A stretch of 29,354 nt of DNA from Jimgerdemannia flammicorona. Taxonomy: Eukaryota; Mucoromycota; Endogonomycetes; Endogonales; Endogonaceae. Under the pieces are notes generated by a model, which had not been told where the DNA came from, ran no database searches, and worked only from the letters and a program-made list of their open reading frames with translations. Position numbers and translations under genes: made by a program. The first letter of the stretch is position 1; every line of letters begins with the position of its first letter. The stretch covers positions 1 through 29,354 of the forward strand of contig RBNI01000560.1 in the NCBI GenBank assembly GCA_003990745.1, given 5' to 3'. Below are positions 3,852-28,600 of the stretch, piece by piece.

Positions 3852-4824
3852 ATGTCGCAATTTTCAAACCTTGCCACTGAAATGTTGCTCACGATCGTGG
3901 TTGAGGGCGACTGGAACACACGGGTCTCAATGCACCGGAAACATGGTGCCTCCTTTGAGCTCATCACCTTGAAAGATGTTGGCACACCTTTTTCTTCTGC
4001 ACTCGCCAACACCACCGTCATCAAATATTTGATCTCCGGAAATTTTATGTCGCTGCAAAAATAGTCAATCAAGCATTGAATGATCTTGGCAGTAACCGGT
4101 TTGTGCACATGTGGCTCCGAACATGAGGCAAGCATTAATCTCCCGAAGACTCTTCAATCTATTCGCACGCTAAGCTGCAATCTTCGGCCAGCTCTGGAGA
4201 TCAATATATGCGAAAGATGCTCTCTCTTGTACAACATGCCGACGCCATATTTACTTTTGCATCGCTCACAAACCGTCCACTTGCAAAGTGTGCCTCACGA
4301 CAAAATGCAAGACTTGCGTCATCCCCTATACAACCGCACCCATGCTGACTACCTGTGATGGACGCGGGATGAGAATCTGTGGCGCACATGCAATTATATG
4401 CTCGCCATGCCAGCAGGTCAAACGGGCATGTTCAAGTGAGTGCGTGCAAAATATGAAGGTCCTGACAAGGTGTACAAGGTCTTCTTGTGCAGCTCTGACA
4501 TGTACTACCTGCATCAGAGACAGGAGACTTGTAGAGATTGTAGAACAGTTCGTATCAGCACGTCAGGCAGATGCGTGCGGTGTGACGAATGTTGGGCGAA
4601 GTGGTTGGAGGAATTGCGCTGACTGCGAAAAGGTGATGTGCGTGGCATGTGTGGAGAACGAGTGCGTTGAATGTGGGTTTGGGTCGAAAGCACGCATGGA
4701 TTGTGTAAGCACTCATGAATATACTGACAAGGAAACCCTGGTGGAGGTTTGTGATGGTAATCCTTTTATTTTTGAAAGTAATCGGTTCGAACGAAGCAGT
4801 TCTCGTATAATAGTCATTTTGTAA
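3852..4824 (+). pseudogene. F-box-like / Cys-rich gene remnant
   Basis: An ATG at 3852 opens a frame whose first residues (FSNLATEMLLTI) resemble the start of an F-box, the SKP1-binding motif of SCF ubiquitin-ligase adaptors. That frame stops at 4062-4064. A second frame, open from about 4174 to 4824, is extremely Cys-rich, with repeated CxxC pairs (CTTC, CKVC, CKTC, CSPC, CADC, CVAC, CVEC) typical of zinc-binding modules. The two halves are separated by stops and frame changes around 4065-4175, which could be a decayed region or an intron that I did not resolve. CpG content is normal, so it has not been through the mutation process that hit the neighbouring transposons. The F-box assignment is tentative, and I do not recognise the Cys-rich family. 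Confidence 0.4.

Positions 4825-4985: not shown

Positions 4986-5066
<81 letters not shown>
4986..5066 (+). repeat. 81-bp uninterrupted poly(T)
   Basis: 81 consecutive T residues lie exactly at the point where element 1 begins. To the left is CpG-containing unique DNA (4825-4985, no gene seen). To the right is CpG-free transposon coding sequence that starts in the middle of pol. It could be a replication-slippage tract, the complement of a poly(A) tail at a truncation point, or an assembly artefact at a repeat boundary. Confidence 0.95.
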
Positions 5067-5067
<1 letters not shown>

Positions 5068-5558
5068 TAAAGTACTTTCAGGGAAGTTTGAAGGTTAAGA
5101 AGTTTCACCCTGAAGCCAAGATCTCAGAATACAAGACTGAAGGAGCCATAGAAATGGACCTTGCCAGCATTCAAGATACTACCCTTGAACCACAGACCAC
5201 CACTCTACTTGGTACTAGAATTGAAGTCAAGTTACCAGAGAACCATACTGGAATTATCAAGACCAGGAGCAGTCTGGCCAAAAGTGAAATCTCAGTTAAA
5301 GGAGGAGTAATTGACCCTGATTATACTAGCAAGATCTTCTTCATAGTTAGGAATTACAATTCCACCACCCCATTTGAAGTCAAGAAGTATGATAAGATTG
5401 GCCAGATGCTGATCTATGAAGTCAAGAAGCTCAAGATCACTGAAGCCATTGAACTTATCAAGACTAAGAGAGGAGAACAAGGCTTTGGATCTACTAGAAG
5501 AGGAGCCTATACTGCTACTAAGATTACCAAACTTGAGCATCTGAAAGATAAGGACTAG
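5067..5558 (+). pseudogene. dUTPase domain of element 1 pol
   Basis: This is a trimeric-type dUTPase, which hydrolyses dUTP to dUMP and pyrophosphate and so limits uracil incorporation during reverse transcription. The conserved motifs appear in order: motif 1 as AIEMDLASI, motif 2 as IKTRSSLAKS, motif 3 as GVIDPDYTSK, motif 4 as YDKIGQMLI, and motif 5 as GEQGFGSTRRG. The frame is open from the poly(T) edge (no ATG; it is internal to pol) to a TAG at 5556-5558. Only about 75 codons separate it from the RT region, and no DSG/DTG protease lies between them. This differs from element 2, where the protease follows the dUTPase. Any protease of element 1 must have been upstream and lost with the truncation. 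Confidence 0.88.
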
Positions 5559-5639
5559 AATAAGCACACATATACCATTGGAGAAAACTTTCTCCTAGAG
5601 GAACAACTTCTCAAGATCCTGTATTAGAATAAATAAGTA

Positions 5640-6992
5640 CTTGCCACAAACTTCAGAGACATCCACAATCAAGAACCCAAGTATTATCATGAAGTTGATA
5701 CTAGCAATACCAAGCCCATCTATCAGAAAGCCAGACCTATACCACCTGCCTACAGAGAATGGCTGCAAGCAAAACTCAAGAAAATGGAAGAAGCTAGAAT
5801 CATCAAGCAAGCTATCAGCCCCTGGGCTTCACCTATTGTCCTTATTCTGAAGAAAGGAAGCAAGTCTGGAGAGTTTGCCCCAAGACTCTGCATTGATTAC
5901 AAGAAGCTCAATATAATCACCAAGAAGAATAGACAGCCCTTACCAAATATTCAAGAAATTCTTACCATTCTTAAAAGTAAAGCCAAATACTACACCACCT
6001 TAGATCTGTTCTCAGGCTTCCATCAGATTGGTCTCACTCAAGATGGCAGTGAGAAATCAGTCTTCATCATACCTGATGCCACCTATATCTACCTGTGAAT
6101 GCTATTTGGAATATATAATGCCCCAGCAAGTTTTCAGTAAATGATGAACAGAGTCTTCAGTAATGAGATTGGAAAATAGCTCTTTATCTATATCAATGAT
6201 ATGATCATCTTCAGCAATACTGTATGAGAACATATCAACTACATACAGCTGGCTCTCAAGAAGCTCAAGAAATATGGCCTCTACATCAAGCACAAGTAAT
6301 GTAAGTTTGCAGCTCAGAAAATCACCTACCTAGGACACCTCATTAACCAGACCAGAATTTACATAAACTCTATGAAGATTGAGACTGTTGCAGCCTACCC
6401 AAGACCCAGAACAATTATAGAAGTCTATGTCTTCCTTGGACTGGCCTCCTACTACAGAAGATTTATCAAAGGATACTCTAACATCACAGCACCTATCTAT
6501 GAGCTACTGAAGAAGGAGACCAAATTTGAATGGACCAAGGAATATCAAGAAACCTTCAATGAACTCAAGACCAGGTTGACCCAAGCACCCATTCTTAGAA
6601 GACCAGATTGGAACCAAGAGTTCATTCTGCAGATAGATACAAGTGCTATAGGACTTGGAGCAGTTCTAGCTTAGAAGAAAGATAGATATAAATATGTCAT
6701 CTCTTATGCAAGCCAAGGTATCCATAGAGCAGAACAGAATTACGAGTCATACAAGCTTGAATACTTAGCAGTAGTTTGGACAGTAGATAAGTTTTACTAC
6801 TACTTAGCTGGGAAACACTTCACAATTCAAACAGACCATTCTGCTCTCACCTGGCTATTCTACACTCTGAACTCCAAAAGAATATATGTCAGATAGATCT
6901 ACAGACTATAAGAGTATGACTGTATTGTCAAGCACAGCTCAGGAAGAACTAATGTCAATACTGATATACTCTCAAGGACACTCCAAAATACC
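5640..6992 (+). pseudogene. RT and RNase H of element 1, broken
   Basis: This continues the dUTPase frame. RT is recognisable from SPWASPIVLILKK, LCIDYKKLN and TTLDLFSGFHQI, through FGIYNAPASFQ to the polymerase box at about 6193-6204. There the expected YIDD reads YIND, an Asp-to-Asn change explained by CG to CA, so the catalytic centre is dead. RNase H follows (LQIDTSAIGLGAVLA, TDHSALTWL, NVNTDILSR). In-frame stops include those at about 6096, 6138, 6177, 6225, 6297, 6672 and 6894. Most fit CAA/CAG/CGA changed to TAA/TAG/TGA. The element 2 insertion falls just after the RNase H end. Confidence 0.87.
6988..6992 (+). repeat. Target-site duplication ATACC, left
   Basis: ATACC directly precedes the TGTAAG start of the 5' LTR and is repeated at 17353-17357 after the 3' LTR. 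Five bases is the usual size for gypsy integrases. Confidence 0.95.
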
Positions 6993-7105
6993 TGTAAGCG
7001 CACAACCTCCAAGCCACAGAAACCATACATCATCCTCTGAACAAGCCACCGAAATCACACACGATCTTCGAACAAATCTGGAAATCACCTGCAAGATCAC
7101 GAAGC

Positions 7106-7143
7106 TGAGTCAAATAGAAGTCACAGCGCACAAAGCTGAGTCA
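7106..7143 (+). promoter_or_regulatory. Two TGAGTCA bZIP-type sites
   Basis: TGAGTCA occurs at 7106-7112 and 7137-7143, about 65-100 bp upstream of the TATA motif of the LTR gene. TGAGTCA/TGACTCA is the recognition sequence of AP-1/Gcn4-class bZIP factors, which in fungi include the amino-acid-starvation regulator. Both sites are conserved in the 3' LTR (15401-15407 and 15432-15438) despite the surrounding mutation. Function is inferred from the motif only. Confidence 0.5.
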
Positions 7144-7205
7144 ATACCAAGTCACGGAACACAAGATCCACACAAATGGAATCTTACCAATCCAGAACAA
7201 ATGCA

Positions 7206-7280
7206 TATATACCCTGCCCCGAGACGCATCGAAACAGAGAACCAAAACAAACAACATCCACAACTTCCAAACACACAAAC
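7206..7280 (+). promoter_or_regulatory. Putative core promoter and leader of LTR gene
   Basis: TATATA at 7206-7211 is followed by a CA-rich, G-poor stretch (about 7230-7280) leading straight into ATG at 7281. This is the usual look of a fungal core promoter and 5' leader. The same spacing (75 bp from TATA to ATG) is kept in the 3' LTR (15501 to 15576). It suggests that the LTR gene has its own transcript, separate from the genomic RNA. Confidence 0.5.
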
Positions 7281-8378
7281 ATGACTACCGAGATCTACAA
7301 CCGCATCCACGCTGATATTTGGAATGCCATTGTCAATCGAGCCACCCCCCCTCTGCCCCTCATGAATATCTATAGCCAAGCACCTCTCTACTTCGTGGAA
7401 GCCCAATGGAACGCCCTGAACATGCTTAACGAGGCCCACCGGATTGGACAAATCTCAAGCTACTACCAGATCGGCCGTCTCCTAGAAGACATGGTTGAAT
7501 ACCACCATGATACAGACATTACCCAGATGTCTCAACACCAGAAGCTCATTGCCCGCAAACACCGAGAACTCTTTTATGAGTACAGCACCTTTATTCCCCG
7601 CCTCCGAGTCACTACCAGCGAAATGGTTGCTACCCTGTCCTACGGCCAAATTGACAACATGATACAAGAACTCAACCACAAGTATCTTGAGTATGTTGAA
7701 ACCACAGACAGAACCTTCCCACACCCCGACGATCACATCCTGCAAATGCCCCAAGTTAGATACGCCATGAAGGACATCTACGATATAATCAACTTCGACA
7801 AAGATGAAGTAGAAGACAATGATCCTTCCAATGCTGACATGACCTCAAGCCAAGGATCTCTTCCAACTCTGATCACACCACCAACTCTGCCGATGAACTT
7901 AGAACAGTTCATAACCACATACAAGACTTATTGGAACAATGACTACTGGCATGAATACCAACCTGCATTTACCCCTGATTACTTCAACTACAATGAGGAG
8001 ACCGGAGAACACAATCTGTACCTTCAGACAACCCTTGAGATTGAACCAACCATGCCACCACCTGAGTATGAGCGACACGAACCACAACCGCCAGCATACT
8101 ACAACTCTGTGACTCATAGCACTGTAATCTACAGAAGGTACGCAGACAGCGAATCCGATGAAAATGAAGACGATGCACCACTTCTTCGCCCCCCAACATC
8201 TTATCCAGCATACGAGACAGATGATGCTATCCTGTGGGATGGAGATGAAGTTCCAATGTATTACTACCTCAGCAAACAAGGAGAAGTAATCCACGAACCA
8301 CTCTTCCTAGATGACTACTTCTTCAGAGATGATGCAATAGATGGTGATGTCATCAAAGACTACCCAGACAGCGTCTAA
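7281..8378 (+). CDS. LTR-encoded protein of unknown family, 365 aa
   Basis: This is an intact gene lying wholly inside U3 of the 5' LTR. I do not recognise its family. The start was chosen at ATG 7281 because it follows a TATA/CA-rich leader; the frame is also open from ATG 7176 (400 codons), but that ATG lies before the TATA motif. Residues 1 to about 170 look like a compact, largely helical domain rich in Tyr, His and Gln. The rest is Pro/Tyr/acid-rich and probably disordered. It has no signal peptide or membrane segment. Visible motifs are PPEY (260-263) and PPAY (270-273), both of the PPxY type bound by WW domains of NEDD4/Rsp5 ubiquitin ligases, and an acidic run ending EDDAPLL (296-302) that fits the [DE]xxxL[LI] sorting motif. 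Its position, but not its sequence, recalls the U3-encoded accessory gene of a mammalian betaretrovirus. A role in element release, trafficking or regulation is speculation. Confidence 0.72.
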   Translation: MTTEIYNRIHADIWNAIVNRATPPLPLMNIYSQAPLYFVEAQWNALNMLNEAHRIGQISSYYQIGRLLEDMVEYHHDTDITQMSQHQKLIARKHRELFYEYSTFIPRLRVTTSEMVATLSYGQIDNMIQELNHKYLEYVETTDRTFPHPDDHILQMPQVRYAMKDIYDIINFDKDEVEDNDPSNADMTSSQGSLPTLITPPTLPMNLEQFITTYKTYWNNDYWHEYQPAFTPDYFNYNEETGEHNLYLQTTLEIEPTMPPPEYERHEPQPPAYYNSVTHSTVIYRRYADSESDENEDDAPLLRPPTSYPAYETDDAILWDGDEVPMYYYLSKQGEVIHEPLFLDDYFFRDDAIDGDVIKDYPDSV

Positions 8379-8430
8379 ACCTATAAATAGATTAGCAGTC
8401 ATAGTATAGTTAGATTAGCCTTGTATGACA

Positions 8431-8464
8431 TGACTCAGCAGTCAGACGATCTCTTGACATGTCA
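8431..8464 (+). promoter_or_regulatory. TGACTCA site and TGACATGTCA palindrome
   Basis: TGACTCA (8431-8437) and the perfect 10-bp palindrome TGACATGTCA (8455-8464) lie between the LTR gene and the second TATA box. TGACTCA is the canonical AP-1/Gcn4-type bZIP site. In the 3' LTR the site is at 16737-16743, next to an 11-bp insertion. A further short palindrome, GCACTTAGTGC, lies at about 8504-8514. These are candidate regulators of genomic RNA transcription. Confidence 0.45.
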
Positions 8465-8556
8465 GATCACACTTGTACTATGTGACTACATTCCGACTCA
8501 GCAAAGCACTTAGTGCTACACCCATATTTAGCATAGTCCAGATAGCCCCTCACTAG

Positions 8557-8564
8557 TATAAATA
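8557..8564 (+). promoter_or_regulatory. TATA box for the genomic RNA
   Basis: TATAAATA is followed by a C-rich stretch, a typical U3/R junction. It is repeated at 16863-16870 in the 3' LTR. Transcripts started here would include R, U5 and gag-pol. Confidence 0.7.
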
Positions 8565-8681
8565 CCCCCTCCCCCAGACCTCAGAATCTCAGATCAGAAC
8601 AATCCGAACACAACTTCTGAGTACTTCCCCACAATACCCCTTCACACAACTACTCCTAGTATAGCAATATCATGAATAGCG

Positions 8682-8687
8682 AATAAA
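8682..8687 (+). terminator. AATAAA polyadenylation signal in LTR
   Basis: AATAAA lies about 120 bp after the TATA box in the 5' LTR. The copy that would act on genomic RNA is at 16988-16993 in the 3' LTR. Confidence 0.6.
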
Positions 8688-9049
8688 CCTATTTAATAAC
8701 CCACAAACCACTCTTAAGTAAATCTGTTCCCTGTTAGGTCCTACTCCTAACCCCATCACGAAATTTCCTAATTGGGTATTGTCTGCAGCGAAACACCAAT
8801 TCAACTAAGCTGGCCTTAGTTTCTTGAACTTCCTGAAATATGGAAAATCCTGAATATCTAGAACTAGTCCATTGAAAGGACTTTGGTTGAGACGTCAACC
8901 CGATCTTGAAATCAATAAGCGTAGAGGACGTACTCCATATGAAATTGATCTTGACCATAAGAAAACAGTCTTCCAGAATATCTAGAACTTCCAGAAAACC
9001 CTTCCAGAACTACGTAACGGTTACCCTAAAAAGTAATCCTCTTACAACT

Positions 9050-9061
9050 TGGTAGCAGTGG
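9050..9061 (+). other. Primer-binding site (minus-strand primer)
   Basis: TGGTAGCAGTGG starts three bases after the 5' LTR. It begins TGG, complementary to the CCA end of a tRNA, so it would pair with a tRNA 3' end of ...CTGCTACCA. I have not assigned the tRNA. Confidence 0.75.
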
Positions 9062-11070
9062 TTTACAATCCAATTCCGCTTCAAGACGCTTCCTCACCCC
9101 ACTACAAACCCTTCTACGAATTCCTACAAGTTGGTATAAAGCCCAACCTCTGAACTGGAATTTATTCTGAACTATCTGACAATCTGGAGAGAATTGAACC
9201 TGATGTACAAGGACAATTTGACCTCCACACCTGTAACAAGTGGGACAAACTTCACTCAAAGAAAGAAGTACTCTGATTAAACCAGCAAATAGGCGAAACC
9301 CTATTCACCGAACTCCTTGCACTACACCCAGCAAGTCAAGACAAAGAAGGTCTTATAGAAGCCTTCTTTACCCTTCTCAACAAGAGTTTTATCAGCTCCA
9401 CAAACCCGAGTGACCTAGGACAACCAGCAGCAGTCTTTCTAGCCTTAGTTCCTCACGAAGCCCAAGCCTCTGTAGCCAAGTGGCTCAACTCTACTGACTT
9501 TCACTGCACCAGAACCAAGACCGCATTATTCTACCAATTCCAGAACAGCAAGGCCCGCCATATTCTTAAAGAAGAAGCAAGAGAGACCCTTCATCAACTA
9601 CCTGATCCCGAACCCGAAGCAGGCCCTGCTACAGCCCTATCTGAATCTGAAACCAATACTGAACCAGAACTTGACTTTGAATTAAGTCCCTCTGAAATCA
9701 GATATACAACTGATTCTGTCTACTTTGACGCTGAACAAACCCAAGTATATGGAGACCAAACTGAAGAGGAGGAGGAGTATCTCAGTGAATTCGATCCCAG
9801 ATATACCATCGAAGGAAATGAACCTCCATCAGGACAGAACACACCTACACAGCAACAGACAGCTATCTATCAAGCCCTTACTCCAGACCCACAACTATTA
9901 CTCCAGCAACTTACACAGACCCAAAGAACCCCATCACACTCTGCACCAGTACCTCAAGTAGTACCAGTAACACCACTACCAGCAGTCCAACCTCCTCCAG
10001 TAAACAACATGGTGAACCAACAGATTATAGACCTCACAGCCCAGGTAGCCATAATGGCAGCAACCATTACTGCCTTAGCCGAACAGAACTGACCTACAAA
10101 AAATCTGAGTCTACCTACCTTCAATGGTACTATACAAGAAGTCCAAAGCTTCATTAGTGTAGTTGACACCAACTTCGAAGCCAATCAATGGACCAATGAG
10201 TGAGTTGCTGACCACGTTCTGACAAACAATCAAGACCACACTCTGGAACAACTCTTTGCTACCACTACAGCATATGTCCGCCGAGTTGTTACATTCTTCC
10301 GAGGACCTGCCGAAGAATGGTGGCGAATCCTTCCTGAAAAACCCCTCACATGGGACACCCGACCTGCAGTACTTGCTCAGAATGCAGCAAACAATACCCC
10401 AGGATATGGAGCCCATCCTGCAGCCCCTGGAATTAAACAACTCATGATTGCTCAATATTGCAGTGAAACCATGATTGCCGATTCTCGAGTAAAACTCCGC
10501 AACCTCAAATTTGATGTACATGGCAAGGAGGAATTCGAAACCTTCTGTACAAAACTCGAGTCACTCCTGAACACCATTGGCCTAGGATACATTGCCAACG
10601 ACGAAGCACGAAATGGTACAAGAGCAGACCATTTATTCGATGCCCTGCCTGAATGGCTTACTAGAAAAATCCGAGAACAAGGATGCCCAGTTGGTTGTGA
10701 CCATCAACAATGGTGCCTAGCAAGAATCAAGACTATGGTCAAGCGGATCCTAACAGCCAGACCCATTCTGCCCAGAAGACAATTCAACAACAAGGAAAAG
10801 ACTTGGACCAAGAAAGAAGAAACCAAGGATGAAGCATCCTGAGCTCCCTCAACATCCACTTCATGGACACCCAGAAATCATGAACCCACCCAGCCGAGTA
10901 CCTTCAAGAAACTCACTGAAGGCGAAAGGAATGAACTCAGAAGAAGCAGAGCATGCTTCTATTGCCGAAAGACAGGACACATGGCCAGCGCCTGCCCTAA
11001 TCGAAAACCCCAAACAGCAACATGAGCATCTGTTACCACTCTGCACCACCTCAACAACCTGACTACCAGA
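9062..11070 (+). pseudogene. gag of element 2, broken
   Basis: The frame continues directly into pol. The N-terminal 330 or so residues are Pro/Gln/Glu-rich with an acidic stretch (EEEEEYLSEFDP). A retrotransposon-gag capsid-like region follows (FFRGPAEEWWRILPEKPLTW, then DALPEWLTRKIRE). One zinc knuckle of CX2CX4HX4C form sits at 10954-10995 (CFYCRKTGHMASAC) and would bind genomic RNA. Stops interrupt it at 9151, 9274, 10090, 10201, 10840 and 11023; most are TGA, and several are readable as former CGA. No in-frame ATG exists before about 10009, so the original start codon has been lost (ATA at 9136 or 9289 are candidate former ATGs) or translation began in another way. ORFs seen at 9725 and 10829 are in other frames. 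Confidence 0.85.
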
Positions 11071-14000
11071 ACCCTAGACTTTGTCAAGTTAAGACAAACA
11101 GCCAAAGCCCCGACCAAAGGAAGTCAAAAAGCAGCTAGATATGACCTGTATGCAGCTGAAGAAGCTACAGTTTCCAACCGAGAAGTCAAGCAAGTCTACA
11201 CAGGAATCAGTATCCAAATTCCTAAAGGACATGTTGGAAGAATATGCTGTCGCAGCAGCCTAGCATTGAAAGGACTCTCAGTAGAAGGAGGAGTCATTGA
11301 GGAAGACTACACAGGTGAAATTATTGTCCTCATCCGAAACCACAGTTGGACACCCTTCAAGATTCCCATTGGATTCTGTATTGCCCAGATCCTATTCAAA
11401 AAAATCGAGTCAACCCTGACAGTTAAGGAAGTCCCTGAACTACTGCCCACTATCCAAGGATCCAAAGGATTCGGTTCATCAAACAAGGCCCCAGTCCAAC
11501 CTACCATGAACAAGGAAGAACAATTCTACAAGAAAATCGAAGATGGATATGTACCAAGTGGCCGATGCCCCCACAGCATTGGAATGTACTCTTCCCGCAT
11601 GATTGATGATTGCTTCTCTTGTGTCAACAAACTGGCTCAAAGAAGAACCAACAGAAGGAAAGCTCCTACAACCGAAATCACCACCATTGGATCAGACAAA
11701 CTGCTTACTCTTAAAGCCTTTGTCAATCGAGCACCTGTCAAGATTATGATAGACAGTGGTGCCTCAGGCAACTTCATCAATGAAGAAACAGCCAACAGAC
11801 TCAAGGTCTTCACCTCTCCAGTACAACAAACCCAAGCAGTTGCCACAGCTGATGGAACCTCACATGTCATTAGTAAGGAAGTCCGTAATCTACCCTTCCG
11901 AATTGGTGACTATCGAGTACATGTTACCCTCCAGATTGTACCACTTCTGAATAATGAAATCATTCTTGGAACTCCATGGTTAAAACAAGAGAACCCCATG
12001 ATCGATTGGGTAAACCATTCTATAACCATCAAGAAAGGATGCCACCACTTCAAACTGCAAGGTGAAAAGGATACTCTCAACTCTGGTGACCCTGGACCAA
12101 AGATCACCCACATCAATAAGCTACAACTCAAGAAATTGGCCAAGAAATGCCCTCTCTTTGCTATCTCCATCCATCCATCCAAAGGAGAACCTGAGAATTC
12201 TGAAGAAGACTTTTCCAAAGTTGACAGCCATGTCAGACCACTACTCCAGAAATTCCAAGACATATTTCCGAAGAAGCTTCTGAAAGGCCTACCTCCCAAA
12301 CGAGCAGTAGACCATGCCATCAAGACCATTCCAGACGCCAAGCCAGCCTTCAAGTCAATCTACTACATGTCTCTGAGAGAAATCGATGCACTCAAGAAAG
12401 AAATTGACGAACTCCTGGAACAAGGATTCATCAGACCCAGTGTATCACCTTATGGTGTGCCAGTCCTCTTTGTTGTCAAGAAAGGAGGAGACCTGCAAAT
12501 GTGCATTGATTACTGCGACCTCAACGAACAGACCATCAAGAACTGTTGCCCACTACCCAGAATCGATGAAATATTCGATAGACTTACCAACCCACAATTC
12601 GTGAGCTCTTTTGACCTGCAAAATGGTTACTGGCAAATTGCCATGAAAGAAGAAGACATCTATAAAACAGCCTTCCGAACCCACTATGGACATTTCGAAT
12701 TCCTGGTTATGCCCTTTGGCTTAACTAATGCTCCTGCAACCTTCCAGACACTAATGAATACTATCCTGCACCCATACCTGGACAAATTCGTTGTTGTCTA
12801 CATTGACGACATCCTAGTCTTCAGCAAAACCCTGGAGGAACATCTCGAACACCTTGAACTAGTACTACTGAAACTCCGAGAAAACAGACTCTTTGCAAAA
12901 CTCAGCAAGTGCAAATTCCTCCTGAAGGAAATCCAGTTCCTTGGACACATCGTCACTCCAAATGGAATCAAAGTGGACCCCAGCAAAATCTCCACAATCA
13001 AGGATTGGCCCAGACCTAAGAAGCTGAAAGACCTCCAATCATTCCTGGGATTAGCAAACTATTACAGACGATTTGTTACCAACTTCGCTAAAATTGCCAC
13101 TGCCCTTACTCAAATGACCAAGTATAACAAGAAAGAAGAACAACCCTGGACCATGAAACAAGAAAAAGACTTCAACAATCTTGCAAATTGGGGACCCGAA
13201 TAAGATACAGCCTTTCAAGCATTGAAAGATGCCTTGATAACCACTCCAGTACTTCAAGCAGCAAATCCTACCCTACCATATGAAGTTACCACTGATGCCT
13301 CTGACCTAGCTCTTGGAGCAGTACTCATGCAAGAAGGACACCCTGTGGCCTATCACTCCCACAAGTTCAATGATGCCGAAATCAACTATGCAACTCATGA
13401 AAAAGAAATGTTAGCCATCGTAGACACTCTGATCAAATGGTGACCATACCTAGAAGGAGCACACTTCACCGTATTGACTGACCACAAGTCATTAGTCAAC
13501 ATCAAGACCCAGACTACCCTTTCTCGAAAGCAAGCCAGATGGATGAAAGTCCTCACCAACTTTGACTACGAAATCCAGTACCGCCCTAGCAAGGAAAACA
13601 TTGTTGCCGATGCAATCTCCAGACCACCTATTGAAGAAGTCATCCAAACTCTCACCCTGGTTACAAACTCCATCATGGAACAAATTATTACAGCATGTGC
13701 TGATGATAAAGAAGCTCAAGCACTCCGAGAAATTCTGAACAGTGATGATGCTGACAAGTATACCTGGTACAATCAATACCAACTCAAAGACAATGCTATC
13801 TACTACAAGGACAGATTGTATGTTCCAAACAACCGAGACCTCCGAAGGACTATCTTATTCGAATGTCATGATGCCCCTATAGCTGGACACTTAGGATTTG
13901 ATAAATGCTATGAAGTTATCTCCCGAAACTTCTATTGGCCCCGAATGGCAGATCAACTCAAAACCTACATCACTTCCTGTGATGCCTGCCAACAAAACAA

Positions 14001-15141
14001 GTCCTCAACACTAGCAAAACCTGGTCTACTCCACCCTATCCCAGTACCATCTGCTAATTGGGAACAAGTCTCCATGGACTTCATTGTACAACTACCCCAA
14101 ACCAAGAACGGGAAAGATGCAATTGTTGTCTTTGTGGACTATCTCAGCAAATAAGCTCACTTTGTACCAACCACCACCACTGCAACAGCACCAGACATAG
14201 CTACACTCTTGTTTGACAATATCTTCCGCTATCATGGTCTCCCTAAGATCATTGTTAGTGACCGAGATCCAAAATTCACCAGCCATTTTTGGAAAGCCCT
14301 CCATATACACCTTGGAACGAAACTTGCACTATCTACAGCCTTTCACCCTGAAACCGATGGCCAAACTGAAAGAATGAACCGAACTCTGGAACAAATGCTA
14401 AGAAACTACATTTCCTACAGACAAGATGATTGGCATGAACACCTCACCGCAGTCGAGTTTGCCTATAACAATAGCAAGCAAGCCTCTCTTGGAATGACCC
14501 CATTCTTCGCCAACACTGGACAAAATCCAAACACTCCTCTGACACTCATCCAAACTACTGAGGAACCCTCTACAGTTGAAGCTGTTGAAGAATTCTTACT
14601 CCGAATGCATAATCTAAGCCAGATTGCAACTGAGAACTTATCACGAGCTCAAGAACAACAGTCATAGTATGTTAACCAACATCGCCAAGAAGAAACCTTC
14701 GATATTGGAGAAAAAGTTCTACTAGACATCTGAGGATACCGAGTTGATAACCTCAAGCACAGACCATCGACAAAGCTGAACAGCAAGTTCATTGGACCAT
14801 TTGAAGTCATTTCACAAGTCTCTCCAACCTCCTACAAATTGGTGCTACCAGACACCATTAAGATTCACCCAGTCTTCAATGTCCAATGTCTCAAGTGATA
14901 TAATGACAATGATGATGAACTATTCCTGAACCGAACTACAGAACCACCTGCACCTGTCATTATTAATGACCAGGAAGAATACGAAGTTGAACAAATCCTC
15001 AACAAACGTGGCCACAAGAACCACCCCGAGTATCTCATTAAATGGAAAGGTTATCTGATCTATGATGCAACATGGGAACCCAAGACCAATCTCCAGAATG
15101 CTACTGACTTAGTTCAGGAATATGATTTCTTGAACAACTAA
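11071..15141 (+). pseudogene. pol of element 2 (DUT-PR-RT-RH-INT-CHD)
   Basis: This is in the same frame as gag. Domains in order: dUTPase 11071-11490 ([39 protein letters not shown]); aspartic protease with DSGAS at 11752-11766; RT about 12300-13110 with an intact YIDD at 12799-12810; RNase H about 13250-13640 (TDASDLALGAVL, HEKEML, TDHKSL, VADAISR); integrase with an H2C2 zinc region (about 13860-14000) and an intact D-D-E core (SMDFI, SDRDPKF, TDGQTERMN); chromodomain 14974-15123 ([11 protein letters not shown]). The longest open piece is 11266-13203. Stops at 13201 (TAA), 13441 (TGA), 14152 (TAA), 14665 (TAG), 14731 (TGA) and 14896 (TGA) mostly restore to Gln or Arg by reversing C to T. 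The chromodomain would steer integration to methylated-histone chromatin, by analogy with other chromoviruses. Confidence 0.93.
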
Positions 15142-15287
15142 AATCCAAATACTCCAACACCTATCAGTACACAATATATACTACTCCCTCAAACACTATA
15201 ATTATCATGAATCTAATCAAGAACTCAGCAAGACAGAACAAATTAGAAGGTCCCGACGAGGATGTCGAAAGCTAAGAAGGGGAGAGT
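15142..15287 (+). other. 3' untranslated segment and polypurine tract
   Basis: About 145 bp separate the pol stop from the 3' LTR. The last part, AAGAAGGGGAGAG at 15274-15286, is the polypurine tract that would prime plus-strand synthesis, one base before the LTR start. Confidence 0.8.
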
Positions 15288-17352
15288 TGTAAGTGCACAA
15301 CCTCCAAGCCACAGAAACCATACATCATCCTCTGAACAAGCCACCGAAATCACACATGATCTTCGAACAAATCTGGAAATCACCTGCAAGATCACAAAAC
15401 TGAGTCAAACAGAAGTCACAGCGCACAAAGCTGAGTCAATACCAAGTCACGGAACATAAGATCCACACAAATGGAATCTTACCAATCCAGAACAAATGCA
15501 TATATACCCTGCCCCAAGATGTATCGAAACAGAGAACCAAAACAAACAACATCCATAACTTCCAAACACACAAATATGACTACCGAGATCTACAACCGCA
15601 TCCGCGCTGACATTTGGAATGCCATTGTCAACCGAGCCACCCCCCCTCTGCCCCTCATGAATATCTACAGCCAAGCACCTCTCTACTTCGTGGAAGCCCA
15701 ATGGAACGCCCTGAACATGCTTAACGAGGTCCACCAGATTGGACAAATCTCAAGCTACTACCAGATCGGCCGCCTCCTAGAAGACATGGTTGAACACCAC
15801 CATGATACAGACATTACTCAGATGTCTCAACACCAGAAGCTCATTGCCCGCAAACACCGAGAACTCTTTTATGAGTACAGCACCTTTATTCCCCGCCTCT
15901 GAGTCACTACCAGCGAAATGGTTGCTACCCTGTCCTACGGCCAAATTGACGACATGATACAAGAACTCAACCACAAGTATCTTGAGTACATTGAAACCAC
16001 AGACAGAACCTTCCCACACCCCGATGATCACATCCTGCAAATGCCCCAAGTTGGATACACCATGAAGGACATCTACGATATAATCAACTTCGACAAAGAT
16101 GAAGCAGAAGACAATGATCCTTCCGATGCCAACATGACCTCAAGCCAAGGATCTCTTCCAACTCTGATCACACTGCCAACTCTGCTGATGAACTTAGAAC
16201 AGTTCATAACTACATACGAGACTTATTGGGACAATGACCACTGGCACGAATACCAACCTGCATTCACCCCCGATTACTTCAACTACAATGAGGAGACCGG
16301 AGAACACAACCTGTACCTTCAGACAACCCTCAAGATTGAACCAACCACGCCACCACCTGAGTACGAGTGACACGAACCACAACTGCCAGCATACTACAAC
16401 CCCGTGACTCATAGCACTGTAACCTACAGAAGGTACGCAGACAGCGAATCTGATGAAAACGAAGACGATGCACCACTTCTTCGCCCCCCAACACCTTATC
16501 CAGCATACGAGACAGATGATGCTATCCTGTGGGATGGAGATGAAGTTCCAATGTATTACTACCTCAGCGAACAAGGAGAAGTAATCCGCAAACCACTCTT
16601 CTTAGATGACTACTTCTTCAGAGATGATACAATAGATGGTGATGTCATCGAAGACTACCCAGACAGCGCCTAAACCTATAAATAGATTAGCAGTCATAGT
16701 ATAGTTAGATTAGCCTTGTACGACATGACTGTGAACTGACTCAGCAGTCAGACAATCTCTTGACATGTCAGATCACACTTGTACTACATGACTGTATTCC
16801 GACTCAGCAAAGCACTTAGTGCTACACCCATATTTAGCATAGTCCAGATAGCCCCTCACTAGTATAAATACCCCCTCCCCCAGACCTCAGAATCTCAGAC
16901 CAGAACAATCTGAACACAACTCCTGAGTACTTCCCCACAATACCCCTTTACACAACTACTCTTAGTATAGCAATATCATGAATAGCGAATAAACCTATTT
17001 AATAACCCACAAACCACTCTTAAGTAAATCTGTTCCCTGTTAGGTCCTACTCCTAACCCCGTCATGAAATTTCCTAATTGGGTATTGTCTGCAGCGATAC
17101 GCCAATTCAACTAAGCTGGTCTTAGTTTCTTGAACTTCCTGAAATACGGAAAATCCTGAATATCCAGAACTAGTCCATTGAAAGGACTTTGGTTGAGACG
17201 TCAACCCGATCTTGAAATCAATAAGCGTAGAGGATGTACTCCATACGAAATTGATCTTGACCATAAGAAAACAGTCTTCCAGAATATCTAGAACTTCCAG
17301 AAAACCCTTTCAGAACTACGTAATGGTTACCCTAAAAAGTAATCCTCTTACA
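15288..17352 (+). repeat. 3' LTR of element 2 (2065 bp)
   Basis: It is collinear with 6993-9046 from TGTAAG to CTTACA. The 11-bp length difference is explained by one insertion (GTGAACTGACT-like, about 16730-16741) in U3. Regulatory motifs are conserved: TGAGTCA twice, TATATA 15501-15506, TGACTCA 16737-16743, TATAAATA 16863-16870, AATAAA 16988-16993. Confidence 0.95.
15576..16673 (+). pseudogene. Second copy of LTR-encoded gene, two stops
   Basis: This is the 3' LTR copy of the 365-codon U3 gene at 7281-8378. It has the same start context, same length and no indels. It is broken by TGA at 15900-15902 and TGA at 16368-16370; both positions read CGA (Arg) in the 5' copy, so each is a single CG-to-TG transition. 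Of the two PPxY motifs, PPEY is kept and the second is changed to LPAY. This is the copy that a genomic transcript would carry near its 3' end, whereas the intact 5' copy lies upstream of the genomic TATA box. Other differences between the copies are scattered transitions. Confidence 0.85.
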
Positions 17353-17357
17353 ATACC
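17353..17357 (+). repeat. Target-site duplication ATACC, right
   Basis: This directly follows the CTTACA end of the 3' LTR and matches 6988-6992. Removing the element and one copy rejoins the RNase H end and the integrase start of element 1. Confidence 0.95.
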
Positions 17358-18566
17358 CCCATTAAGACTATTCAACATAAATAAGAAGCTATACTATGAA
17401 TTAATCAACTACCTCAGGCAGCAGAAGATACCCAACTATCTCAAATCTTGGACTATCACTATCATCAACCAGACTTGGAAACAATTTGAACTAGATAACA
17501 CTATACTTAGAAAAGGAGGAAAGCTTATAATATCTGAATACATATAAGAAGTATCAAGTAATAAAGAAAGTATACAAACAAGGATACTTAGGAGGAACTA
17601 ATATATATGACAAAGTAAGAAGAATTATATAGTGGAGAAGATCTGTACTAATTTGTCAAAGGGTGTGACAAGTGCTAAAAACAGAAATAAGATCAGCAAG
17701 ACCAGGTACTCAAGTCATTAAGAATTGAGCCTATCTCTTTCCACCATATTGCAATGAATATTATTGGACCACTACCAGTGATACTATTAGGAAACTGCTA
17801 TATTATAGTTATTCTAGATCTCTTTACTAAATGGATAGAAGCAAGAGTATAACAAAAAGTTAATACTCTCTCTATAGCTGACTTCCTGCATCAAGAAATC
17901 ATCTGCCACTACAAGACATCTAAGCCAATCACTACAGACCACAGCACAGAATTTGTCAATGGATTCCATGAGATAATATATCAGAAACACAAGATTCAGC
18001 ATATCAAGACCACCACATACCACCCTCAAGGAAATAGACAGATAGAGAGAACCAACAAGACTCTTAAGAATATCCTGGTGAAGATCTCAGACATATATGA
18101 TAATTGAGATAACTATCTCTCAATTACTCTCTGTCCTATGAGATATATAGTCACAGAGTACACTTTATTCCAAAAGAACTGCTCTTTGGAGAAGAAGATT
18201 CTGATAGAACCTCAGCTACAAATTTAGACCTAACATAGAGATAGGTTGATTCAGAAATCTGAAGACTATACTAAATCAGAAAGAAGGCTGAAGATTACAT
18301 CATCAAGTCACAAGTGCTGATAAGGAAAAATGCAGAAAAGAATCACAAGACCCTAGAACCTATCCAAATTAGAGAAAAGGTCCTACTATATCAAAATACA
18401 TATGGTAGAAGCCTCATGATCATGAAAACTGAAGCCCAAATAAAAAGGACCCTTCTATGTGCAAGATATCAAGAGAACTATCTTCTGGCTTAGAAAACTC
18501 TCAGGGACCATACTGCCTACTATGGTACACAGGAACAGACTTAAGAAGTACTATGAACCTATATAA
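17358..18566 (+). pseudogene. Integrase of element 1 pol, broken
   Basis: This resumes element 1 after the nested insertion. A spacer region (LRLFNINKKLYYELINYL, open to about 17547) precedes the integrase core. The core reads MNIIGPL (about 17754), where the first catalytic Asp is Asn; then TTDHSTEF with Asp at 17937-17939; then YHPQGNRQIERTN with Glu at 18045-18047. The C-terminal part ends VHRNRLKKYYEPI before TAA at 18564-18566. No chromodomain is visible after it, unlike element 2. Many stops are present. CpG is essentially absent throughout. A shift of frame relative to the RNase H part indicates a small indel near the junction. Confidence 0.85.
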
Positions 18567-25604: not shown

Positions 25605-28600
25605 ATGAACAGTAAAACCAACATTTTCTCTTTAAATGTGAATAGGCTCTGGTGTTCATTTCATCAATAGAATATTTTTGCTTGGCTGAAGGAATTGGAG
25701 ACTGATCTCTTTCTTTTGCAGGATATCAGGTGTAAGGATAATTTGGATAAACTGGAATGAATAAAGGAATAGAGAGGGGAGGTAGTTTGGAAGAGCAAGG
25801 TTGGGATTCTGGTCAGGAAGGGCAGAGAGGAGATACAGGATGTATAGAACTGTAGAGACAGGCTGGTCTGGGGTGAGTGGATTTGCACTGGTCAGGAACT
25901 GGTTACAGTTGGATTCTGCTACTGTTCTGTGGTGAGGGATGAGTGTGTAGAGTAGGTGAAGGGTCTTCAGGAGGAAGGGACTCTGGCAGAGGCTGGAGTG
26001 GACATGCTTGACAGAGACTTTAATATGGTTAGAGATGTACTGTTAGATAGAACTGATGGAGGGTGGGGGGTAGAGGGAAGGAGTGGAGGTTTGGAGGTAT
26101 GAGAGGAAGTAAAGAGGCTGAGTGCTTTGATAGATACTGGCAGGGAGCTATGGGGTGACTGAAGGATATATACACATTGAGTGAGTGGCCTGGAGATGAG
26201 AATTAACTAGATTTTGATAGCAGACTGCTGAGGTCTGGATACTTGAGAGTCTTTGGAGGCAGAATGGTATCCATGGTCTGATTATTAGAGACTGCTGGAA
26301 TAGAGACATTTTGGGGGGAGTGGGGATGGACTGAGACATTGGTGCCTCAACTCCTCCCTAGTAGACAATAAGATACTGTAGGATAAGTAGGCTGAGGATA
26401 TTCAGTAGAGGGTAGAGGGGTGAATAAGAAAAGGTGCCTCAGTTGGTGTTAGGTGGATGAGGCTGAAGGAGGCAGCTAGGGTCTATTGGAGGGAGATAGG
26501 TGCAGCAGCTGGAAAACAGAGGAGAAAGAAGAGGCTGTGGGCCTCTGCTAGATTGATAAGGCTGTTGGAAGATTGGGCAGGTATAGTGACCCTAGAGGGG
26601 GTGGAGGATTGGAGATTGTTATAGGTGAGAAAGGAGATTGTAGAGTTGCAACAGATATTGTAGAAGGAAGAGAAAGTACAAGTATAGAGTATGGCAGCAT
26701 GTCTCTATTAGCAGGGGCTGGAGGAAGGAGATAGGCCCTCTAAGTTTCTCATGAGGGCCCTTCAAGCAAGGAGGGTTCAGCAGAGATAGAAGAGGGTTTT
26801 CAATTCTGAGAGGACACTGGTGCATGGTATATAAGATATTCTCATATTACTGAAGGAGCAGTGGAGTGACTTATAGAGTGAGGAGGAGGGTGGGGCAGAA
26901 GATGCCTCTATTGGTATTGCCTTGGAGGATTGGCACCCACTATAGGTAGAAGGGCTGGACAATCTGGTGATACTAGTATAGGAGGAGGAGATTTACTAGA
27001 TTCTTGCTACAACTATATTGAATATAGCACCAAGTGAGGATGGCCTACTCTGGGCTTTCTGGAAGAAGATGGTAGATGTCTCTGGTGATGCTAGTATAGG
27101 AGGAGGAGATTCACTAGATTCTTGTTATAACTATATTGAATATAGCACCAAGTGAGGATGGCCTGCCCTGGGCTTTCTGGAAGAAGATGGTGGATGTCCC
27201 TGGTGTGCTGGGAGAGTTGAGGGCACTCTGTGACTTGGTACTACAGTCTGGGAGATAGGTAGGAGAGTAGGATCTGAGGTTGGTGGCACTGCTGTATAAG
27301 AACAAAAGTAGGAGGGAGGACTGGAGGAACTGGAGGCCAATCATGCTACTGAATATGGACAGGAAGTTGATTACTAAGATAGTAGTAGTGAGGCTACAGA
27401 AGGTGGCCCAGCAGGTCTTGAGGGTAGAGCAGTGGAGATTTATTGAAGGCTGACTCATTTGGAATGGCACAGCTTGGATATATAGTGTTATTGAAGGAAC
27501 ATGGGCCTGTGGATTGGATGGGTACCTGGTCTTCTTGGATCAGGAGAAGGCATATGACTGTGTTCAGAGAGTCTGGTTGGCAAAGATACTAGACAGAATT
27601 GGAGTCTCTCATCAGTTCTAAGCAGTAATGGTCAGTCTACTGGAAGGGAGCAGGACTGTACTCATATATAATGAGTATTGAGGGGTGGCTTTCTTTCTGA
27701 GTAGGGGTGTTCTCCAGAGGGACCCACTGTTCTCTATTTTGTATATACTCTCTTTGGAGCCCCTAATGGATAGGATTCAGCAGAAGATAGGAGGGCTCTC
27801 AGTTTATAGCATTGAATGGAAAGTTAGTACTTTTGCAGATAATATGGTAGTTGGTCTGAGTTCAATTGTCAATATTGAGAAACTCAAGGAGACTGTAGAG
27901 TGGTATGAGGTATACTCAGGGGCTAAACTCAATTAGTATAAGTATGAAACAATGGTGCTAGGTAATAGCCTGGTAGGGGGGGAGGTCATTGGAACAATTA
28001 TCCCTGCTGGAGAGACAGTGAGGTACTTGGGTATCTATCTGTCAGTGTATAGGTTCATTCTTCCAAAAATCTGGTGAGAGCAGTAGGTAGTTATCTGGGA
28101 GGAGGCCCTGCAAAGCTGGAGAGGCTACTACTTATCTCTGGCAGAGTGTATTTCTATCTTGAATACTTACTGGCTACTGAAGTTGTGGTATCTGGCATAT
28201 CATCTGGACTTCTTGGCCTGGGTGGTGAAGAGACTGCTGAAACTGACAAAGAGGTAGATCTGGACAGAGAGGAGGAGTCAGATTAGCTAGGAAATTTTGT
28301 CCCTATTAGTGAATAGAAGGGGACTTGGGCTGGTTGACTTTCTGAAGAGGTTATACTGTCTGAGAGCATGGTGGCTGAAGAGAGCTATTGAGCTGAGGGG
28401 AGGCAGCTGGGTTCCTCTATTGAAGAAGGTCTGAAAGATGAGGTTCTTACTGAGAGAATCTACAGGAGATCTTTTGTCCTTAGTTGGGCTTTATAATAAT
28501 GAGCACATGCAGTTTAAGGGCTTCTGGTAGAGAGTTACTGATGGGGTACACTGCATTGGCATTTATTGACAAGGAGATAAGGAAGAAGGGTCTTGAGGTC

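Follow-up and report, generated by a model that had tools for sequence, protein, structure and literature searches.

Evidence for a selected 365-codon gene in the U3 region of a fungal chromovirus

Long terminal repeats (LTRs) commonly count as non-coding DNA with a regulatory role, and solo LTRs as inert remnants. The locus described here raises the question whether an LTR can carry a gene of its own and, if so, whether that gene was under selection, how it would be expressed and what its product might do. The window, i.e. the whole stretch of 29,354 nucleotides that was analyzed, comprises the complete contig C560 of a 134.8-Mb assembly with 7754 contigs, and this assembly was also the genome searched for further copies. 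Its host is fungal as judged by 22 Fungal_trans matches and the lack of any chlorophyll a/b-binding match; CFEM, run with no positive control, gave none.

The element and the reading frame within its LTRs

Pairwise alignment revealed a Ty3/gypsy element at 6993-17352, with paired LTRs, the short inverted ends TGTAAG...CTTACA and a 5-bp target site duplication (TSD), ATACC (Table 1). Zinc knuckle, dUTPase, PR, RT, RNase H, integrase zinc domain, a Tf2-1-type SH3 domain and a chromodomain were matched in its interior above the Pfam cut-offs, and the gag and rve core matches stayed below theirs. The order of the families is PF08284, PF00078 (4.9e-33), PF17919 (7.1e-27), PF17921 (1.2e-21), PF24626 (2.5e-16) and PF00385 (1e-15). 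PR, RT, RNase H and integrase thus follow each other as in chromoviruses, with the chromodomain at the C-terminal end, and judged from these domains the element is a dUTPase-bearing Ty3/gypsy chromovirus. Directly upstream of the 5' LTR (5088-6674) lies a second gypsy element with a dUTPase (PF00692, 1.3e-25), a marginal RT match and RNase H. The window element seems to be nested in it (5088-6674 and 17353-17547); the far side of this nesting is unproven, because the short frame after the 3' LTR (17353-17547) matched no Pfam family. Further upstream, a cysteine-rich frame of 178 codons (4288-4824, no Pfam match) is separated from this truncated gypsy element by a run of 81 T (4986-5066), and a 118-base repeat in two head-to-tail copies, 94% alike, is found at 26963-27198.

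Table 1. Positions of the element, the LTR gene and the predicted signals in the window
Feature	Position	Strand	Evidence or detail
5' LTR	6993..9046	+	2054 bp, TGTAAG...CTTACA; alignment, TSD ATACC at 6988-6992 and 17353-17357
TGAGTCA box 1	7106..7112	+	CTGAGTCAA in 67/71 covering copies
TGAGTCA box 2	7137..7143	+	TGAGTCAAT in 66/71 covering copies
TATATA, predicted TATA box of the LTR gene	7206..7211	+	ATATATAC or ATATATAT in 71/71 covering copies
LTR gene, 5' LTR copy	7281..8378	+	365 codons, open; frame, genome copies, variant pattern
TGACTCAGCA box ahead of the second (genomic) TATA box	8431..8440	-	61/68 covering copies
TATAAATA, predicted TATA box of the genomic RNA	8557..8564	+	57/57 covering copies
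AATAAA, predicted poly(A) signal common to LTR gene and genomic RNA	8682..8687	+	51/52 covering copies
Putative primer-binding site TGGTAGCAGTGG	9050..9061	+	position and sequence
gag-pol, one reading frame in pieces with stops between them in the window copy	9277..15141	+	Pfam matches
Putative PPT, purine-rich tract ahead of the 3' LTR	15274..15287	+	sequence
3' LTR	15288..17352	+	2065 bp; pairwise alignment, TSD ATACC
LTR gene, 3' LTR copy	15576..16673	+	full length, two TGA stops

An earlier note on this DNA, made from the letters alone, had described a frame that is fully open across 1098 bases of the 5' LTR, and this was confirmed. Its statement that the frame recurs without indels in the 3' LTR also stood, since the length is the same, whereas that copy is not open owing to its two in-frame TGA codons. 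Openness by chance had been called unlikely in the same note, and none of 3000 first-order Markov simulations of the 2054-base LTR, read on both strands, gave an ATG frame of at least 365 codons, the longest reaching 234 codons.

The copies in the genome provide stronger evidence than this simulation. Among 3878 first-look candidates of the protein search, the best 112 were scored, and all 112 span 363-365 residues (from residue 1 or 2 to 364 or 365) at 89-100% identity; 24 of them, the window copy included, are free of stops and the remainder carry one to four. In the DNA search, 40 of 3011 first-look candidates were scored, every one spanning at least 1083 of the 1098 bases. Both lists hold the best-scoring candidates only and hence lean towards intact copies. 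They yielded 72 distinct fetched copies, four of the initial 76 loci being repeat fetches of the same places. Exactly 1098 nucleotides were found in 69 of the 72, the other three being off by one base, and the start codon is ATG in 69 of 72. Among the 69 full-length copies, taken as they are from the best-match lists, 18 are stop-free and 51 contain one to four stops.

Selection on the LTR gene and the history of its copies

Variants were split by the number of copies carrying each of them. Those present in a single copy are read mostly as mutations after insertion, those shared by many copies as changes that arose during the mobile phase of the family. The counts of nonsynonymous (N) and synonymous (S) changes comprise 69 copies, the three with a one-base length change being excluded; variants without a matching codon background were skipped in the allele classes, and codons with more than one change in the tree counts. 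Singletons amounted to 115 N, 71 S and 14 stop changes (N/S 1.62), where the neutral expectation for transitions in this frame ranges from about 1.6 (C>T and G>A only) to 2.0 (all). Alleles present in six or more copies gave 54 N, 124 S and 5 stops (N/S 0.44), with 125 of 183 at third codon positions, and the contrast of N+stop against S between these two classes has a Fisher p of 3e-10. The intermediate classes, 0.90 for two copies and 1.24 for three to five, do not follow a monotonic course. The DNA-ranked list (31 of its 40 copies fetched, 30 of them full length) gave (N+stop)/S of 1.50 for singletons, 1.26 for two to three copies and 0.47 for four or more (p 2.6e-6). A FastTree tree gave N/S values of 0.62 for terminal and 0.27 for internal branches (p 1e-14, stops counted as N); the terminal value lies below neutrality, perhaps by recurrent changes landing on the tips of a shallow tree. 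For comparison, though as a weak benchmark, the integrase/chromodomain end of pol was scored in 19 copies, with (N+stop)/S at 0.92 (singletons), 1.20 (two to three copies) and 0.69 (four or more copies; 22 sites). The LTR gene in the same 19 copies gave 1.57, 0.75 and 0.35, a larger contrast than at the pol end.

The coding signal is confined to the frame. In bins of 120 bases, the six-plus variants favour third positions in all nine bins from 7281 to 8360, and no consistent preference of this kind was seen for such variants in the flanking LTR bins. The three-base periodicity of shared variants sets in with the start codon at 7281 and ceases with the stop codon at 8378. An in-frame ATG further upstream at 7176 was considered as the start and is unlikely; it is present in 31 of the 71 covering copies and no periodicity precedes 7281, hence the start is placed at 7281. 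Within the gene, a frame of 131 codons on the minus strand (7899-8294) is likely a mere shadow, because the third-position pattern follows the sense frame. Compared with the window 5' LTR, only two distinct indels occur in the 1098-base frame among 72 copies (1.8 per kb), while the flanking parts of 239, 212 and 456 bases contain 17, 12 and 33 (57 to 72 per kb), counted in 67, 56 and 43 copies, respectively. Per kilobase and copy, 0.04 indels were counted in the frame; the corresponding flank values range from 1.8 to 5.6, and two of them are inflated by two events of the window 5' LTR itself, which show up in 52 of 56 copies and in 30 of 43. Indel and stop counts alike lean towards intact frames, owing to the ranking of copies over the gene, mostly by protein score.

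Each full element has two copies of the gene that were identical at insertion and therefore show the fate of the gene without selection. Between the two window LTRs, its part differs by 28 N, 20 S and 2 stop changes, near the neutral expectation. The whole pair shows 83 differences in 2055 aligned bases and a single length difference of 11 bp. Transitions account for 82 of the differences, with 42 in CpG, 23 in CpA, 14 in CpC and 3 in CpT context, a methylation-like pattern in counts that are not normalised for composition. Such transition-rich decay of the copies suggests that the host methylates or mutates its repeats. Collectively, these data support purifying selection while the family moved and relaxation after insertion. 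The gene is not kept once inserted, as shown by the stops now present in 51 of the 69 full-length copies. The earlier note had named dN/dS near neutrality and family LTRs lacking the frame as findings that would speak against a gene; we found an N/S of 0.44 for shared alleles and full length in 69 of 72 copies, the latter in best-match lists from which LTRs lacking the frame could have been missed.

By context, 18 of the 72 copies have element interior upstream, 16 downstream and 10 on neither side, i.e. these are solo LTRs; for 28 the end of the contig or of the fetched stretch was too near for a class to be given. Perfect 5-bp TSDs flank nine of the ten solo LTRs. All ten contain the gene, nine with 1098 and one with 1099 nucleotides, and three of them are stop-free. 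One solo LTR (L034) is nested in the LTR of another copy. Most other copies cannot be aligned to the first approximately 50 bases of the window LTR (6993-7041) and seem to be shorter by about 30 bases there. An A+T-rich, strongly decayed relative of the LTR was found at L062:1446-2200, with 57% protein identity and nine stops in 174 codons. When this relative was used as query, 40 copies were scored, 39 besides itself at 80-84% identity, which suggests, from the sequences at hand, that an older wave of the family lies behind such copies.

Predicted expression and the nature of the product

Because the whole frame precedes the second, genomic TATA box, it is assigned to U3. It ends at 8378, and both TATAAATA candidates, the one at 8557 and a further one at 8382, are downstream of it; R probably starts near 8590. 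Taking placement and selection together, we regard the LTR gene as very probably a real, selected gene located in U3. The earlier note had proposed that such a gene needs its own promoter, and the sequence is in line with this: the TATATA at 7206, 75 bases ahead of the ATG, is present in all 71 covering copies and is preceded by the two conserved TGAGTCA boxes, which we take to be AP-1/Gcn4-like (bZIP) sites. Both predicted TATA boxes are preceded by the same type of box, and TGASTCA occurs three times in the noncoding LTR compared with 0.10 in mononucleotide shuffles. Some caution is appropriate, since TATATA is found 41 times in the window and TATA-like words are common in such A+T-rich DNA. 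Moreover, conservation alone is no proof of these signals, because many other noncoding LTR bins are also more than 95% alike, so that part of it is due to shared descent. With these points considered, a promoter of its own appears probable for the LTR gene. As the TATA box, the two TGAGTCA boxes and the AATAAA are nearly invariant, each LTR, including the solo ones, looks like a complete expression cassette.

The protein itself gives few hints. The earlier note could assign it to no family, and profile searches agreed: Pfam-A up to E 10 returned none for the LTR protein or its relative, PHROGs gave matches at chance level only (best E 1.4), and PDB gave one chance match by sequence (E 0.32) and none with a profile. 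Residues 173-365 contain 42 D/E and 9 K/R (pI 4.1), cysteine is absent, and the highest mean Kyte-Doolittle value over 19 residues is only 0.57, hence no membrane segment is expected. Accordingly, no stretch is hydrophobic over the length of a membrane span, so that a transmembrane segment as in envelope-like ORF3 products was not found. AlphaFold2 on a two-row alignment gave no usable fold (mean pLDDT 33.6), and the model, with very low confidence, has a mostly helical N-terminal part. For the C-terminal half, a WW-domain-like look with two tyrosine/TGE hairpins and two PPxY-like motifs was considered and dropped, as Pfam showed no WW domain and the PPxY motifs are not kept in the only relative. 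Since it matched no family, has an acidic C-terminal half and lacks cysteine and a membrane segment, the product is probably a soluble accessory protein.

A search of 5.8 billion proteins, with the single sequence and with a profile, found one relative, P0002, an open frame of 247 amino acids on a 998-base contig (source 'ena'). It matches residues 115-365 with 62% identity over 251 aligned positions and 4 gaps. Compared with the genome's 150 scored copies it reaches 65-70% and is therefore from another species or a diverged family. Scanning viral_contigs and genome_contigs once each with two short patterns gave no relative. The dUTPase-PR-RT piece has a 95% relative, P0003, in a JGI set, with the next nine at 41-52% identity. 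Elements with dUTPase are very abundant in the genome, all 150 scored matches among 5391 first-look candidates being over the cut-off. A second element with dUTPase and chromodomain, on C1016 (L077, L078), is flanked by a pair of direct repeats that are 94% alike over about 408 bp and that we take to be its LTRs. Neither the LTR gene nor the window LTR was matched in the two stretches fetched from it (8 kb), hence the gene is not general to such elements, as far as this one other example goes.

According to the mechanism that we propose, a short mRNA would start about 30 bases past the TATATA at 7206, would be translated from the ATG at 7281 and would end past the AATAAA at 8682, separate from the genomic RNA that would start at about 8590. 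Its product would raise LTR transcription or counteract silencing, also at copies elsewhere in the genome. Since promoter, gene and terminator are all within the repeat, each transposition makes two cassettes, and recombination between the LTRs would leave one behind. That the product is a regulatory protein at all we consider an even bet. A trans-acting regulator or anti-silencing factor for the LTRs is favoured because the gene adjoins two promoter-like sites with the same boxes, because selection acted during the mobile phase, and because copies decay by transitions, mainly in CpG and CpA context in the window pair, with L062 as an old, strongly decayed case; this is a guess and the weakest step. 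Searches of Pfam, PDB and PHROGs showed no homology to any transactivator or anti-silencing protein, and an acidic composition says little in favour of an activation domain. Taken in full, the proposal of a selected U3 gene with its own TATA promoter encoding an acidic soluble regulator that acts in trans on LTRs is held at slightly less than even confidence.

Other explanations of the frame have to be weighed against this. It could be a functionless passenger that is open by chance or because the copies share a recent ancestor. The copy lists do favour intact frames, and openness alone is weak evidence because the median distance between copies is only about 7%. However, the difference in N/S between singletons and shared variants, also among the DNA-ranked copies, the three-base signal confined to the frame, the scarce indels and the open frame of a relative at 62% identity make a mere passenger highly improbable. 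A captured host gene carried as cargo would agree with the uptake of foreign genes and domains by LTR elements that is described in two papers (PMC5408684, PMC2864245), and a single-copy host homologue, if diverged, would go unnoticed among the several thousand candidates from elements; nevertheless, such an origin appears improbable, as no known family was matched.

The place of the gene would also permit another route of expression, mainly from spliced or read-through genomic RNA as in ORF3- or nef-like positions, with the upstream TATA being incidental. The 3' LTR copy would be inside the genomic RNA, downstream of pol and ahead of the poly(A) signal, and the ORF3 genes of bdelloid LTR elements typically use spliced messages (PMC5408684). 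The TATATA kept in every covering copy together with its upstream boxes stands against it, as does the fact that the first ATG past this TATATA is the start where the coding signal begins, so that we hold this route possible, if unlikely. Regarding the product, a structural or assembly accessory, for example a second Gag-like or particle protein, would fit the N-terminal helices of the unreliable model, the acidic, proline- and tyrosine-rich tail and an acidic stretch seen by eye in the first Gag piece of the element. Yet no Gag family was matched, and the internal region already has a zinc knuckle and a weak gag match; such a role is rather unlikely. The preferred reading hence remains a regulator expressed from its own predicted promoter.

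Comparison with known systems and meaning for the family

The superantigen gene (sag) of MMTV sits in the U3 of a betaretrovirus, and its product Sag, a membrane protein, targets the T cells of vertebrates. The LTR gene resembles sag in being a whole accessory gene in U3 and thus present in both LTRs. It differs in that the element is a fungal chromovirus and the product has neither a Sag-type homology in Pfam-A up to E 10 nor a transmembrane segment, the hydropathy maximum being 0.57. In foamy viruses, the LTR transactivator Tas/Bel1 is made from a second, internal promoter upstream of the 3' LTR. If the product analyzed here is a regulator, it would be analogous as a transactivator from a second promoter that acts on the LTR. 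In contrast to Tas, however, gene and predicted promoter are both in U3, and no homology to the Bel/Tas family was found in Pfam at E up to 10. The VANDAL elements are DNA transposons, whereas an LTR element is concerned here. Their VANC proteins in Arabidopsis are anti-silencing proteins, as stated in two studies (PMC5735166, PMC10398659); the LTR product, for which Pfam gave no match, would be comparable if it counters silencing of its own family.

Among LTR elements, the bdelloid ORF3 genes are likewise extra genes, several of these elements also having a dUTPase; they are reported to show no significant departure from neutrality, and a location in the LTR is not stated in the text consulted on them (PMC5408684). 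Fungal Ty3/gypsy elements with dUTPase include PosPlaTy3, elements of Phanerochaete and Tmt1 of Tuber, which have these traits in common with the element of the window; the part of that survey consulted mentions no LTR-located gene for them, and a figure legend lists an additional ORF of unknown function without giving its position (PMC2864245). The earlier note knew of no established family of U3 genes in fungal Ty3/gypsy elements, and searches of open-licence literature likewise brought up no recognisable precedent. The LTR gene is thus a U3-encoded accessory gene in a group for which none was found in that literature.

The most far-reaching interpretation is a tentative one, which we regard as possible and not as probable. 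Every LTR, solo ones included, would be a self-contained gene with promoter, 365-codon orphan regulator and terminator that was selected during mobility, seeding up to thousands of trans-acting copies that outlive the element, and deletions by LTR recombination would leave behind a regulator helping the remaining elements. A selected gene located entirely in the U3 of a fungal chromovirus would in itself imply that solo LTRs can go on encoding a functional protein of the element, that such a factor has a higher gene dose than there are elements, and that genes are hidden when LTRs are masked as non-coding DNA.
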